Source: Macrocystis pyrifera (lineage: Eukaryota; Sar; Phaeophyceae; Laminariales; Laminariaceae). From it: a stretch of 64,000 bases of DNA. The stretch covers positions 4,884,904 through 4,948,903 of the forward strand of contig JASSKH010000031.1 in assembly GCA_031763025.1 (NCBI GenBank). The letters run 5' to 3'. The position numbers and the translations under genes were made by a program. The notes under the pieces are model-generated. The model saw only the letters and a list, made by a program, of their open reading frames with translations, was not told the DNA's origin and did not search any database. Shown here piece after piece: positions 3,701 to 56,800 of the stretch (position 1 is its first letter; every line of letters starts with the position of its first letter).

Positions 3701-6700
3701 TGACCGCCCCGCATACACTAAAACCCTTACAATAATACGCTACTACTATCAGACCGCGGTTTGCCCCCCGCCCCCCCCCCGCCCTTGGGTGTCGTAGGGG
3801 GAGTTGCTTGCTCTTTCTTCCCGGCGGAGGCTTCAGAAATTTGTTTGGGCACCCTATTTTTTTGGCGTCATCAAAATCAGAAACTCGTCCAGCACACTTT
3901 CCCTGCCTCAATGTTGGACCTCGCAGAGTAGTCGCGGAAATACCCGCCCATCTTTTTTCGTTGTTGCCAACAACCTTGCCGGATCAGACTGTGCCGTGGA
4001 CCCTCCCTCCCCTCAGCAGGCGGGGGAGGGGGGGGGGGGGGGGGGGGGGGGGGGGGGGGGGGGGGCGTACTCGTTTGTTGCTTGCGTTAGTCATTTGACC
4101 ATTGACCACGCATCCCTTTCGAGACGGAGCACCGGGGGGGGGGGGGGGGGGGGGGGGGGGGGGTCGTTAGATTTTTTTGCTTGATTGAGTTGAGGTTGAG
4201 GTTGATTTCGCTTGGTTTGGTCTTGGCTCTTGGCATTGGTTTGGCTCTGCGCTTTCTTGTACTCACACCGTTGTTCACTTTCCTGGGTTTTGCTTTCGTG
4301 TGCACCGGCGCTTTCGGCGGGCAGGGTGAGTTGAAGCTGGCGGACTTCGGCCTGGCGAGGACCTACGGACACCCGATGCAGCCGATGACCCCCAAGGTAA
4401 GTCGCAAACACAAGCTATTTACGGGAGACCGTAGTAAATCAGGACCAAATATTGTTAGCGAAAATAGGAAAATATGTAGGTTTTTTGTGTGTACCGTAGG
4501 TCCTATTTACTATAGCGCCCCGTAATAAAACTCGCGGCGTAAAAATCCCGGCTCTACTGCTGTGATACAAGTAACTGCCTGCGACACTATGTATGTACTG
4601 CAGTAGTCGCGAGCAGTACCGATTAAAAAAAATACCGACTGTAGTCGCAAGCAGTACCGATGTTGAACATACCGATTGTAGTAGTACCGACGGCGCTAGT
4701 CTCAGCACCGACGTAAAAATTGTTCCTACTACGGGGGTCCATAGTTAACGGGACCAAATTTTGTTAGTAAAAATATTAAAATATATAGGTTTTTATGTAT
4801 ACCATAGGTCCTATTAACTGTGGACCCCCGTAATAGCGTCAATACCGGCGGCGCCGCTCACAGTACTGTACCGAGTGTAAAGCTACCGAACGTTGGTACA
4901 AGGAAGTGGTACCGACGGCACCCCAGGTTTATCTCGGATCTGTCTATAACCGATCTAGATCCTAATTTTTTCCAGATGTTGTGTGCCTTCCCGTCGGTGG
5001 TCTCGCCAGGTGGTGACCTTGTGGTATCGGTGTCCGGAGCTGCTCTTGGGCTGCGAGACGTATGGTACCGCGATCGACCTCTGGGCCGCCGGCTGCATCT
5101 TGGGCGAACTCCTGCTTGGCAAGCCTTTGATGCCCGGCAAAACCGACCTGGATCAAGTGCACAAGATATTCAAGGCAAGATTCGGTTTTCGGAGTTCGGT
5201 GTTCGGTAATCAGTTTTCGAATTTTTTCTTTAGTTTTGGTTTTCGATAAATTATTTCTGCTCACAGTTTTTTTTTTATTATTACTTTCAGTTTTTGATTT
5301 TTGTTTTTTTTTTCGGTTTTCGGTTTCGGTTTCGGTTTGAGTTGATTTCGGTTTTGATTCGTGTTTTTGGTTTCCGAATTTTTCTTCTTGGATTTCGGCT
5401 TTTTATTTTCGGTTTCGGGTTCGGTTGATTTTGGTTTGGTCCTTGTCTTTGGTCACCGATTTTTTATTTTTGGGTTTCGGTTTTTGGTTTTCGGTTACGG
5501 TTTTGGTTGATTTTGGTTGGGTTCCTCGTTATTGATTCTGTGGACCACCGGTTGCGTGGTGGGCGGACTCCTGCTTGGCGAGCCGTTGATGCCCGGTAGC
5601 ACTCACGTGGGTCAAGTGCGTAGCATGTTCGTGGCGAGATGGATTCAGTTTCGTTTTTGGTGCTGGTTCTGGTGTTGGTTTTCGGTTTTCGAGTGTTTTT
5701 AGTTTGTTTCGGATTTCGGTTGTTGGAGTTTGTTTCGGGTTTTTAGGTTGATTTGTTTTTTGGTTTGAATCTGTTTTTGGTTTTGGAGGGCGAGTTGGTT
5801 TTGGTTTCGTTTAAAATAGTGTTGTTTGGGTTTGATTTTGGTCTGGTTTGGTTTTGGTGTTTGAGGTTCGATCTTGATTTTGGTTTGGGTTTGGGTTTGA
5901 GTTTGTTGTTTCGTGGTTTCACATTGTGTTTAGTTCGCGTGTGTTTTCGTTTCCAGTTTCTGGTTTCGGGTGGGTTCCGGGTTGGTTTTTAGTTTGGCTG
6001 TGGTTCGTTTGGTGTGCTTAGTGGTTGTAGTTTTTGAGAATTTATTTTCGTTTTGCCGTGCGCTGCCTGCCACTTCCCGGACCTCGCCCCCCCCGCGCGC
6101 ACATTGCATGCATACCTGCTGCGACTTTGCTGCCCCCGCGATCGCACGATACTCTTGTTCCTTCCTTTTCACTGCCTTTCTTCGAATCATGATGCTCCTC
6201 CCCCGTGTGATATTTGCATAAACAGCCCTTCCGCGTCCAAGCAAACACCCCCCCCCCCAAAAAATAAATAATAAATAAATTCATTGATGCTGTCATCCAT
6301 ATACAAGAAAATCCGCCTCACAAGCGGTTCTTAGTAGGATGCAGCTCACCCTTCATGCGACTCGCCCAATACCTCACGTTTCGCTTCGCGCTTGGTGCAA
6401 GCAATGTCTGCCTGGTCGGTGAAAACCCGACGTGCTCCGTCCCGGCATTGTAGGGATGCGAGGGTCTACGGTCATACGACTACGGCCATGCATGACAATG
6501 AGTACACCCCCCCCCCCCCCCCTTCCTGTCTGGGACTCCGAAAAAAGTGGGATCTCGAAAAAAAAAAAAATCGTATACCCGTGGGGTAGCACTTTTTGTG
6601 TTTTTGTCGTGATCAGTTTTTACTTACTATTATTAATAGTGTGGATATACTCACGCGAGGAACCTCATGAATCACCAGGTGCACATACATGACGACACCC

Positions 6701-53800: not shown

Positions 53801-56800
53801 CGACGGTATTTGCAACATCACTGTCGGCATTTACAATTTTTCGTCGCCCCGAGTTCAGAAAACAAATGATGACGTCAACTAGTAATTCATCTGGGGTCGT
53901 CATGCGCCGTGAGCTCGGTCTCTGCCTCCTCCCAAGCCCCTGCCGCTGTCGGTATATGCAAAGTATTGCTGTCGGTATTTGGAATGTCGCGGGCGGTATT
54001 CGCAATGCCGCTGTCGGTATGATATGTACAACGTCGTTGTCGGTATCTTCAGTATCGCTGATAGTATTTGCAAGTTTTGCTGTCGGTATTGGGGATGTCG
54101 TTGTTGGTATATGCAATGCCGGTGTCGGTACGTGCAACGTCGATGTCGGTATCTGCAATATCGCTGTCGGTATTTGGAAGTTTTGCTGTCGGTATTTGGA
54201 GCGTCGTTGTTGGTATTTGCAACGCCGCTGTCGGTATGTGCAACATCGTTGTCGGTGTTGCAATTATCGCTGTCGGTAGTTGCAAGCCGCTGTCGGTATG
54301 TCCAACGTCGTTGTCAGTATGTCGGTATTTGCAAGTTTTGCTGTCGGTATTTGGAATGTCGTTGTTGGTATTTTGAAACGCTGCTGTCGGTAAGCGCAAC
54401 GTCGTTGTCGCTATTTGCAATTATCGCTGTCGGTGTGGCTCACCGGCTCGTAAGCGATGACGATTTTGTCCATCTCCTCTGCCGATACGCCGGCCAGGTC
54501 CTTGCCCAGCTGGACCGCGCAGATCTGCAATTTGCGCGGGTATTTATAGGCGGAAAGTCACGACGACAAAAAAAAAACGCCCCATGAGACGTACATGTAG
54601 GAACACGAACGTAGCAGCAGCGTCAGCGAAGATAACGGGAATGGCGTGGGGCGGAGTGAAGTAGATGGGGGGCGAGGGATGGGCGCGGGGGGGGGGCGAA
54701 AGGTATGACGACCCTGCCATCACAAAAAAGTAGACATTTTTTTTTTCACCAGTGGAACCAATTTTGCGCTGGTTAATGTCACATAAAACAAACAACACCG
54801 GTACTATGTGCTACCCTTTCGCTCGTGCGACTATCGCTGCTTCTCCTCCTACCCCCTCGACCCCTTCCCTCCAAACCTCCGCTCCCCCAACCACAACAAT
54901 TGAGACCCCTCCGGTTCCCCTGTCCCTTTCTCAAACATACCTCCTTGTTAAGTCCCGCTTCGTACTCCTCCTTGCTCTCTCCGATGCAGAGGATGGGCTT
55001 CAGCCCCGCGTCCAGCACCTTGCGCACCTTTTAATCGTCGAAAAACAACGAATTACGTTTGTCGTGCGTGCACCCGTTTAAAAAAAAAAACGCAGCCACA
55101 ATAAAAAAAAATTAAAAAGTTGACCTATCGACAACGTGGGGAGCGAAACTCATGACGTCACACACAGTAAAGCTCTGGCCGTACATGCAAAAGGACCGTT
55201 CGGGTATAAATGTGAAAGCCAAGCGGTCCTTGCATTTTCGGGCAGAGTTGAGTTGGCGGTTTCAACGCTGCCGTTCTCGAACAGTGGCCGCAGAGGATGT
55301 ATCTACGTGCCCCCCCCCCCTCCCCCCCTCAGGAAGGGGATAAGATTAGCAGAAAGTTTCCATGTAATATATGGAAACAACGTAATGAGCGCCCGAATGT
55401 TGGAGGTGTCTCTACCAGGAGTTAGGAACGGTGCTCCGTCTCGAAAGAGATGCGTGGTCAATGGTCAAATGACTAGGGCAAGCAACAAAAGAGTACGCCC
55501 TCCCCCCCCCCCCCCCCCCCCCCCCCCCCCCCCCCCCCCCCCCCCCCCCCCCCCCCTCCCACCCCCCCCTCCCCAATCGCCTACCCCAACTAAAACTCTG
55601 CATATCATCATAAATACATGAACAAGGGGCTTCGCCGGCGGCCTGAATGGTCGCCGGTCGCCGCGTCGGGTGATGCCCACGATGATGGCAGCGTATCTGC
55701 AAAGCGGAGGTCAGACTTAATGCCGAGACTTACGAGGATTTTTATACACGCTACCCAAAACGTACAGAGAATGAGCGTGACTGATGTCCACATTCTCGTG
55801 TGGTACGGTATTAGGTCAAATATTCGACACGCATGAATGAATACAGCGTGCTTCGCCGGCGGCCTGGATGGCCACGTTGTTACTGCGGGGGACCATAGTA
55901 AATAGGACCAAATATTGTTAGCAAAATTAGGTAAATATATAGGTTTTTGTGTGTACCGTAGGTCATATTTACTATGGTTCCCCCTAATAGCAGCGTTGTG
56001 ACGTAGGATTGAGGTCCGACTCGGTGCCAAGAGATCAGAGTGTCCTAAACACCGCCCACGGAGAAATCGAGCGACTGCCAGCTGCACAGATACGCCCCAG
56101 GTGTGGGGAATAGTCGGCTTTTTGGGGGGGGGGGGGAGACATAAAAACATGCAGGAGTTGAAACGAGCTATGGCACTACACGGGGAGCACTAAGATTTCA
56201 GAGAGCATCAGCCCACCGTTTCGATCACTTCATCCATTAGATTTTCCGCAATGTACGGAAGATGCGAGGGTCTATGGACGTACGACTGCGGCCATGCATA
56301 ACATGAGTACACCCCCCCCCCCCCCCCGCCCGCCCGCCCGCCATATACCCCCCCCGGCTCGCCCGCTCCCTCCTACCACCCATCCAAACAAACGATCACT
56401 CCGCAAAAATCACACCTTTCGGTTGACGGTTTCATCGCTGTCCCCGAACACCGATCGTCGCTCGGAGTGCCCGCAGAGCACGTACGTGCAGCCCACGGAC
56501 GCCAGCATCGCCGTCGAGACGGCCCCGGTGAACGCCCCCTGGTTCTCGATGTACAGGTTCTGCGCGCCCACACTCACGTGGTTGCCAGCCACGCTCCCCA
56601 CCTTAACCCAAAAAAAACGAGATCGGACGTAAATGTATAGTTGCACAAGAGTAGTGTTTTAGACCAGGTTTCCTGAAAACATTTATATGCGTCACGTGGC
56701 AAAACAAAAAATACGGCAAACGGTGAAGCAAGATTTTTTCGCAGCGAAAAAGTTCAAAAAAAAAAAAAACTCATTAAGAGCTGGGGGGAAAATTGAGAAG

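Follow-up and report, generated by a model that had tools for sequence, protein, structure and literature searches.

Partial, diverged copies of exon edges were found in the adjoining introns of the CDK, FNR and TPI genes in a 64,000-nucleotide stretch of Macrocystis pyrifera DNA (hereafter the window, meaning the whole stretch analysed). With a probability of roughly 0.8, in our assessment, these copies stem from small tandem duplications scattered over non-coding DNA, some of which cross an exon edge, and the edges themselves are no special start point.

Exon models were built with a spliced aligner from protein templates under a raised intron penalty; a lenient penalty produced many micro-exons. 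Eighteen exons were modelled in the window rather than the approximately 24 of the original prediction because the templates span conserved parts only, and the edges named in that prediction fell where it had placed them. The CDK exon end at 13992 was set by hand at a GTGAGA donor. Each of the 31 window edges was aligned with its own intron in 120-bp windows and compared with 1000 first-order Markov resamplings of that intron. Decayed edge copies had been claimed at six edges, and local alignment recovered a diverged copy in direct orientation within the neighbouring intron at 6/6, each far above the 1000 shuffles. Seven of the 31 edges scored 52–78 against top shuffle scores of 30–34, namely the six named edges and TPI donor 54444. 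The remaining 24 scored 30 or less, including CDK donor 4396, which reached 30 (p 0.001) and was left out of the count. Sources and copies are listed below, identities being identical columns over all columns of the best local alignment.

5010..5174, + strand: CDK exon with a GC donor, followed by a GC-AG intron (spliced-aligner model)
5079..5245, + strand: source, last 96 nt of CDK exon 5010-5174 plus intron start (exon model, alignment)
5538..5718, + strand: decayed copy of 5079-5245; 128/182 identical, shift about 459 bp, score 74 versus shuffle maximum 34
9240..9345, + strand: source, last 26 nt of CDK exon 9164-9265 plus intron start (exon model, alignment)
9837..9954, + strand: decayed copy of 9240-9345; 80/120, shift about 597 bp, score 52 versus shuffle maximum 34
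13985..14476, + strand: tandem array at the edge of CDK exon 13905-13992; score 60 versus shuffle maximum 30
37416..37616, - strand: source, intron end plus first 84 nt of FNR exon 37374-37499 (exon model, alignment)
37626..37837, - strand: upstream decayed copy of FNR intron end, AG and exon start (37616-37416 with 37837-37626); 147/217, shift about 226 bp, score 78 versus shuffle maximum 34
53140..53283, - strand: source, intron end plus first 35 nt of TPI WAIGTG exon 53048-53174 (exon model, alignment)
53405..53537, - strand: first upstream copy of TPI intron end, AG and exon start (53283-53140 with 53537-53405); 100/146, score 72 versus shuffle maximum 34
53649..53747, - strand: acceptor edge of the TPI WAIGTG exon, second copy upstream (53231-53142 with 53747-53649); 68/99
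51754..51817, - strand: TPI WAIGTG exon, final 59 nt with donor GT, copied downstream (53106-53045 with 51817-51754); 49/64, shift 1289 bp, score 58 versus shuffle maximum 32
53944..54437, - strand: 21-22 bp tandem array in the TPI intron after exon 54444-54524, beginning 7-10 nt inside the intron

The copy at 5538-5718 retains the GC donor dinucleotide (at 5634). In the copy at 9837-9954 the donor GT reads GA and the copy runs into a tandem array (9919-10768); edge 9265 showed two more short matches (23/25 and 12/12). The first unit of the array at 13985-14476 includes the 8 terminal nt of CDK exon 13905-13992 together with its donor, with further GTGAG-like sites at 14107, 14232, 14342 and 14470; the alignments obtained were 13985-14222 with 14224-14460 (174/242) and 13989-14049 with 14103-14160 (47/61). 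The match at TPI donor 54444 consists of the 21-22 bp array alone, and exon sequence is absent from that array.

The analysis was extended to ten modelled genes, three of them from the window, with 147 kept exons and 271 edges in about 264 kb of gene-bearing sequence. Twelve of the 159 modelled exons were dropped (<50 nt, <15 aligned residues or <25% identity), as were introns below 120 bp or containing N (2/138 candidate stretches). The stretch after CDK 13992, whose next exon is unmodelled, was taken as a 3000-bp intron and overlaps the non-coding stretch 14500-32000; introns in general may conceal unmodelled exons. Copies were found at 7/31 window edges versus 21/240 in the other seven genes (p 0.03), a difference that is expected, since the window was picked for this feature. 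In a strict 80-bp test with a score cut of 40, 17 of the 271 edges had a direct copy on their own side, 8 of them contributed by GcvP; the three copied CDK edges of the window scored 34-38 and hence lie outside these 17.

Placement and orientation of the copies were those of tandem duplications spanning an exon/intron boundary. In the strict test, inverted copies were seen at 1/271 edges and direct copies on the far side at 0/251. The claim that copies of a 5' edge lie upstream and those of a 3' edge downstream thus held in the wider sample; such one-sidedness is what tandem duplication itself produces. Edges matched their own intron about 15 times more often than introns of other genes (17/271 versus 35/8130, at 30 trials per edge; naive Fisher p 2e-13). 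Purely exonic 60-nt edge windows gave the same picture, with 12/270 matches in the own intron, 0/270 inverted and, at edges with a far intron, none on the far side. Matches thinned with distance, from 0.235 per kb of intron in the first 300 bp (17/241 edges) through 0.135 and 0.109 to 0.038 at 900-1200 bp; beyond 1200 bp the values of 0.057 and 0.061 per kb rest on a single match each, and other introns of the same gene gave 0.006 per kb (6/1076 trials). Among the 32 listed shifts, 29 measured 58-834 bp, the search having extended no further than about 1.6 kb. Eleven of 18 exon-containing copies aligned over at least 15 intron nt, so that both sides of the junction lay in the unit, and the other seven over 8 or fewer. 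A non-tandem origin of nearly exon-only copies was considered in eight cases and is disfavoured by their own-side, direct-only placement; one case, GcvP 11191, was uninformative, the stretch having aligned to itself.

Local duplication was widespread within introns. The 125 introns of at least 300 bp were divided into 5240 80-bp windows; 18.5% of these had a direct copy within 1.5 kb and 6.5% an inverted one, which supports the view that much intron sequence is taken up by local duplication. Duplication correlated with intron length (Spearman 0.44 over the 125 introns), partly as an artefact, because longer introns give matches more room. Duplication was not clearly specific to introns, as values in nine stretches of non-coding DNA beyond the modelled genes ranged from 0.6% to 25.8% versus the 18.5% of introns. 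The window also holds a MITE-like family of ~108 bp and long homopolymer tracts.

By its own terms, the original prediction would be refuted if exon-edge matches proved no commoner than those of equal-sized internal intron windows. This refuting outcome was obtained in the ten genes, the scale at which the comparison was made in place of the whole genome, and a preference for exon edges was not supported. Without filtering, internal windows matched more often than edges (1255/8130, 15.4%, versus 17/271, 6.3%). A filtered test removed 80/271 edges and 3238/8000 internal windows as dispersed or low-complexity, 'dispersed' being judged against the analysed sequence rather than the whole genome; 565/4762 internal windows (11.9%) and 19/191 edges (9.9%) then matched in direct orientation, and 105 and 0, respectively, in inverted orientation. 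Bootstrapping over genes gave edge/internal ratios of 0.40 (0.13-0.86) unfiltered, and 1.0 (0.32-2.3) filtered and net of inverted matches. Requiring a longer span changed the filtered ratio to 1.1 (0.36-2.6); these filtered intervals are wide enough for a modest excess at edges. The apparent 2.5-fold depletion at edges came from the 80-bp test alone, and the rates became level with longer windows once dispersed and low-complexity sequence was removed; the claim is therefore kept at 'not enriched'. Without the window genes, direct matches numbered 13/172 at edges and 324/3859 internally, with 0 and 92 inverted, so that net of inverted matches edges stood slightly above internal windows (7.6% versus 6.0%). 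Edges also gave slightly more matches per kb at 300-900 bp (0.135 and 0.109 versus 0.113 and 0.062), which we read as longer visibility of edge copies.

These figures bear on the proposal that the matches are not products of tandem copying and come instead from dispersed elements, introner-like sequences or tracts of low complexity. The MITE-like family, the homopolymer tracts and the inverted matches of internal windows speak in its favour, but filtered edges and exon-only windows kept their direct matches with no inverted ones, and matches to other genes' introns were rare within the ten genes. We regard it as the least probable of the explanations weighed here.

Profiles around the junction were examined for a preferred start of duplication. 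With 60-bp windows, matches rose from 0/35 at -120 nt (exon) through 5/109 at -60 and 13/129 at the junction to 32/129 at +60, an increase from exon to intron with no junction peak in the ten genes. A one-sided profile (600-bp target, introns of at least 1400 bp) started from 4/73 at the junction, reached 18/73 at +60, and gave 8-9/73 at 300-500 nt and 13/73 at 700; in this one form of profile, rates may be mildly raised 30-250 nt into the intron. Duplication ends, counted in 20-bp bins over 271 edges, did not pile up at junctions: six fell in the 0-20 bin, below each of the next four (11, 8, 9 and 7). Edge alignments ended within -20..+5 nt of the junction in 11/32 cases, more often than alignments at arbitrary centres (14% of 314), and overhangs into exons were spread over 0-96 nt.

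It could be argued that splice junctions or their close vicinity initiate duplication, through R-loops or transcription-linked breaks for instance, so that growth of an intron proceeds outward from its ends. The 35 duplication ends at 20-100 nt inside introns versus 20 at 100-180, the top of the one-sided profile at +60 and the frequent termination of edge alignments at the junction (7/18 with 8 or fewer intron nt aligned) would fit this. Against it stand rate profiles without a peak at 0, the sparse 0-20 bin, the scatter of exon overhangs and internal windows that match equally often or more; the drop deeper into introns, moreover, stems in part from restricted room, an edge effect. Junction initiation is therefore considered unlikely. 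Of the idea that introns lengthen by tandem duplication from splice junctions, the boundary-spanning duplication and the large share of intron sequence filled by local duplication stood, and the start at junctions was not supported.

Divergence of the copies was unequal on the two sides of the junction. Over 18 copies (14 of the 32 listed edges were dropped for having <15 exonic nt), identity was 711/871 on the exon side and 405/549 on the intron side. Differences fell at codon positions 1, 2 and 3 in 52/292, 43/291 and 65/288 cases; because they are spread over all three positions, the copies do not appear to have been retained as coding sequence. An in-frame stop precedes 12 of 14 phased decoy donors (1/15 donors without phase was excluded), and the protein-based exon models called no extra exon at the copies. 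The splice dinucleotide was intact in 18/22 copies versus 130/226 internal centres (p 0.04).

Tandem exon duplication, as in mutually exclusive exons, is a known process that duplicates entire coding exons, which are then retained. Exon sequence is likewise copied into a neighbouring intron here, but exon ends only, and not kept as coding. That the copies are eroded relics of whole spare or mutually exclusive exons would agree with the exon sequence and the retained dinucleotides; the lack of far-side direct copies (also with exon-only windows), the 0/35 result 120 nt inside exons and the decay at every codon position, including 1 and 2, make this highly improbable. The copied splice sites might alternatively be retained as working sites, for which the intact dinucleotides could be cited, their frequency being above that of internal centres. 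However, 18/22 fits an assumed one-branch expectation of 0.738 (binomial p 0.48), most decoy donors are preceded by an in-frame stop and copied codon positions 1 and 2 have decayed. We consider working sites very unlikely, and attribute the surplus of retained dinucleotides to one-branch decay rather than to function.

Under the preferred reading, that of scattered small tandem duplications, these would arise more or less randomly across the genome's non-coding DNA, with random breakpoints and with break repair or replication slippage as their putative source. Occasionally a unit would begin in an exon and end in an intron, or vice versa; the original exon edge would remain intact and in use, and the edge copy with its splice site would land on the intron side. 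The copy, being untranslated, would decay free of constraint. Selection would hold the exon half of the source nearly constant, so that source and copy diverge mainly on one branch, and the intron half would diverge on both, so that the match often ends at the junction. As the exon half of the source is conserved, the exon part of the copy would stay recognisable for longer, and this probably accounts for the apparent start of copies at junctions. Some boundary-spanning duplications may also have been removed by selection.

Boundary-spanning tandem duplication is known from the potato RdRp gene, where it made a new intron and an inserted exonic stretch (Ma, Lan and Niu 2016, PMC4974935); in our case, judging from the sequence, the copy appears to stay in the intron, decaying. 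The AGGT-duplication model, as outlined for Drosophila cases (PMC2891723), also involves local tandem duplication with splice-site sequence, but there duplication of an exonic AGGT creates an intron, whereas here pre-existing introns are merely lengthened. Fill-in synthesis at break ends (PMC8355091), worked out in human and mouse cells, yields small tandem duplications and is a source of such direct copies that could act generally, at any place in a genome; the shifts seen here often reach hundreds of bp. Keyword searches, judged by titles and abstract openings, listed no survey of exon-edge copies in introns.

The striking exon-edge pattern is thus most likely the visible part of duplication throughout non-coding DNA, and unequal decay would explain its apparent concentration at junctions. 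Comparing exon-only edge windows with own intron, far intron and inverted sequence provides a simple test with built-in controls by which local duplication and the turnover of decoy splice sites can be measured in genomes with long introns. More tentatively, exon edges could be a frozen archive of intron growth, in which boundary-spanning duplicates stay readable much longer than those within introns, the exon half barely changing; since they are nevertheless no commoner than internal duplicates, selection would have removed perhaps half of them or more. If this doubtful but possible reading were true, a single genome could show how fast local duplication proceeds, how fast copies decay neutrally and what decoy splice sites cost, and local tandem duplication would have produced a good part of the long introns of brown algae.

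The window carries, on the + strand, a CDK11-like kinase gene whose best solved relatives are CDK11B chains and, on the - strand, genes for a chloroplast-type FNR and for TPI, all three with introns. An open frame at 47047-47388 (-), upstream of the FNR exons, begins with a signal-peptide-like translation and resembles presequences of secondary-red-plastid proteins; it is a putative extension of FNR. The whole assembly (537 Mb, 223 contigs) also holds a SecA-like gene of several exons (8 matches) in the nuclear assembly at C197:12458815-12479670 (-), relevant should the plastid be of red origin, and a very large family with the EsV-1-7 cysteine motif (at least 150 matches, all 150 scored exceeding the cut-off; 1585 candidate places), of which none of 14 control genomes yielded a match; brown algae are a lineage in which this family is expanded, which makes a kelp-sized brown alga the probable origin of the sequence.

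Self-comparison, sequence reading, exon models and alignments revealed diverged copies of exon edges, that is, of exon ends at splice junctions, in the adjoining introns at CDK edges 5174, 9265 and 13992, at FNR acceptor 37499 and at both edges of TPI exon 53048-53174, confirming all six named in the original prediction. These six and TPI donor 54444, where the match is a 21-22 bp array beginning just inside the intron, scored 52-78 (7 of the 31 edges in the window), versus 30-34 for the highest shuffles in 1000 resamplings of each own intron. The next best edge, CDK donor 4396 (score 30, p 0.001), was left out of the count. Other features of the window were as follows.

5175 (+): GC donor of CDK exon 5010-5174, whose decayed copy retains GC at 5634
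9919-10768: 45/183-bp tandem array in a CDK intron, in continuation of the copied 9265 edge
9365-9473: MITE-like element of ~108 bp, with similar sequences at 4419-4525, 4726-4836, 7032-7143 and 7818-7931
15133-15240, 15439-15547, 19741-19842 and 22810-22911: further copies of the ~108-bp element
23703-23853 (151 bp), 23416-23491 (76 bp) and 55498-55574 (77 bp): very long tracts that are wholly or nearly all G or all C

A GC start is likewise seen in several more of the modelled introns. The dispersed MITE-like element has terminal inverted repeats, beginning TTACGGGGGAGCCATAGTAAATAGGACC and ending in the near complement of that start; 20 kb of the window contain nine or more copies of it.

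For comparison of edges with equal-sized internal intron windows, models of GltB, GltB-like, two CarB, ClpB, GcvP and HSP70 genes were added using E. coli proteins as references; the CDK and FNR exon templates were typed by hand. The resulting ten genes provided 147 exons kept of 159 modelled, 271 edges and 136 introns (median 869 bp, total 150,949 bp), one of the latter being the 3000 bp that follow the final CDK exon of the model. The intron-rich genes for the carbamoyl-phosphate synthase large chain (C189:6910001-6940000 and C207:10572001-10612000) have some exon lengths in common (84, 105 and 141 nt).

With 80-bp windows and a cut of 40, under which the three CDK edges fall (34-38), a direct copy was found in the own intron at 17/271 edges, 8 of the 17 supplied by GcvP, versus 1255/8130 internal windows of matched target length, an edge/internal ratio of 0.40 (0.13-0.86, gene bootstrap); edge windows matched introns of other genes in 35/8130 trials. 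With 120-bp windows, direct copies were found at 28/271 edges versus 631/4000 internal windows, inverted ones at 1 versus 191, and matches to mismatched introns at 4 versus 82. Removal of dispersed and low-complexity windows left 19/191 edges versus 565/4762 internal windows (inverted, 0 versus 105), with a net-rate ratio of 1.0 (0.32-2.3), and omission of the window's genes gave 13/172 versus 324/3859 (inverted, 0 versus 92). Edges are thus not clearly enriched, their copy rate being level with or below that of internal windows with the wide error of ten genes, and the predicted excess at edges was not borne out.

Nor did duplications appear to start at splice junctions, as had been proposed. 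In introns of at least 900 bp, the proportion of 60-bp windows that are copied locally rose from 0/35 at -120 nt (exon) to 13/129 at the junction and 32/129 at +60, stayed at 0.22-0.27 up to +300 and was 0.18-0.19 at +350 and +400. A one-sided profile in introns of at least 1400 bp gave 4/73 at 0, 18/73 at +60, 8-9/73 at 300-500 and 13/73 at 700. Duplication ends did not accumulate at the junction: the 0-20 nt bin held 6, and the four bins after it 11, 8, 9 and 7. A mild increase just inside introns is possible; nothing in these data points to duplications beginning at the junction itself.

The apparent start of copies at junctions is probably explained by unequal decay. Because the exon is constrained and its copy is not, changes in the exon half would accumulate largely on one branch, and those in the intron half on both. 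Across the 18 copies that contain 15 or more exonic nt, identity was 711/871 on the exon side and 405/549 on the intron side, and in 7 of them the recognisable match extended no more than 8 nt past the junction into the intron side. The splice dinucleotide was kept in 18/22 copies, a rate that is compatible with one-branch decay although it exceeds the 130/226 found at internal centres. With differences at codon positions 1, 2 and 3 alike (52/292, 43/291 and 65/288, respectively), the copies do not seem to have been retained as coding sequence, and an in-frame stop precedes 12/14 phased decoy donors (copied splice sites), whose use should therefore be harmful. Edges are expected to be over-detected yet are only equal in rate, which suggests that some boundary-spanning duplications were lost to selection.

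The predicted one-sided geometry was reproduced. Edges had direct copies on the own side only (17/271, versus 0/251 in the intron across the exon), with inverted copies at 1/271 and 2/251, respectively; internal windows searched on both sides had 260/1044 direct and 75/1044 inverted. Exon-only 60-nt edge windows matched the own intron at 12/270, with no inverted match (0/270) and none on the far side among edges having a far intron. Matches became fewer with distance and were rare elsewhere in the gene, with 6 among 1076 trials on its remaining introns. This pattern of side, direction and distance is the one expected when a tandem duplication crosses a single boundary. The special role assigned to the junction is unneeded, because a copy left by a unit that spans one edge can lie only on the intron side of that edge. 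A tandem duplication spanning an intron/exon boundary is described in potato (PMC4974935), with the same anatomy as the copies reported here. In Drosophila, tandem duplication is described as having added intron positions (PMC2891723), and PMC8355091 describes how break repair can yield small tandem duplications. According to an Ectocarpus paper (PMC12477816), autosomal introns have a median length of 524 bp and most brown algae are rich in introns.

Direct local copies were found in 18.5% of 5240 intron windows and inverted ones in 6.5%. Outside the gene models, the value was 22.8% for window stretch 14500-32000 and 3.4% for 58000-64000; around the other genes, seven flanks spanned 0.6% to 25.8%. 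Local duplication therefore does not look special to introns, and the proposal that it lengthens them holds in that more general form: it contributes to intron length.
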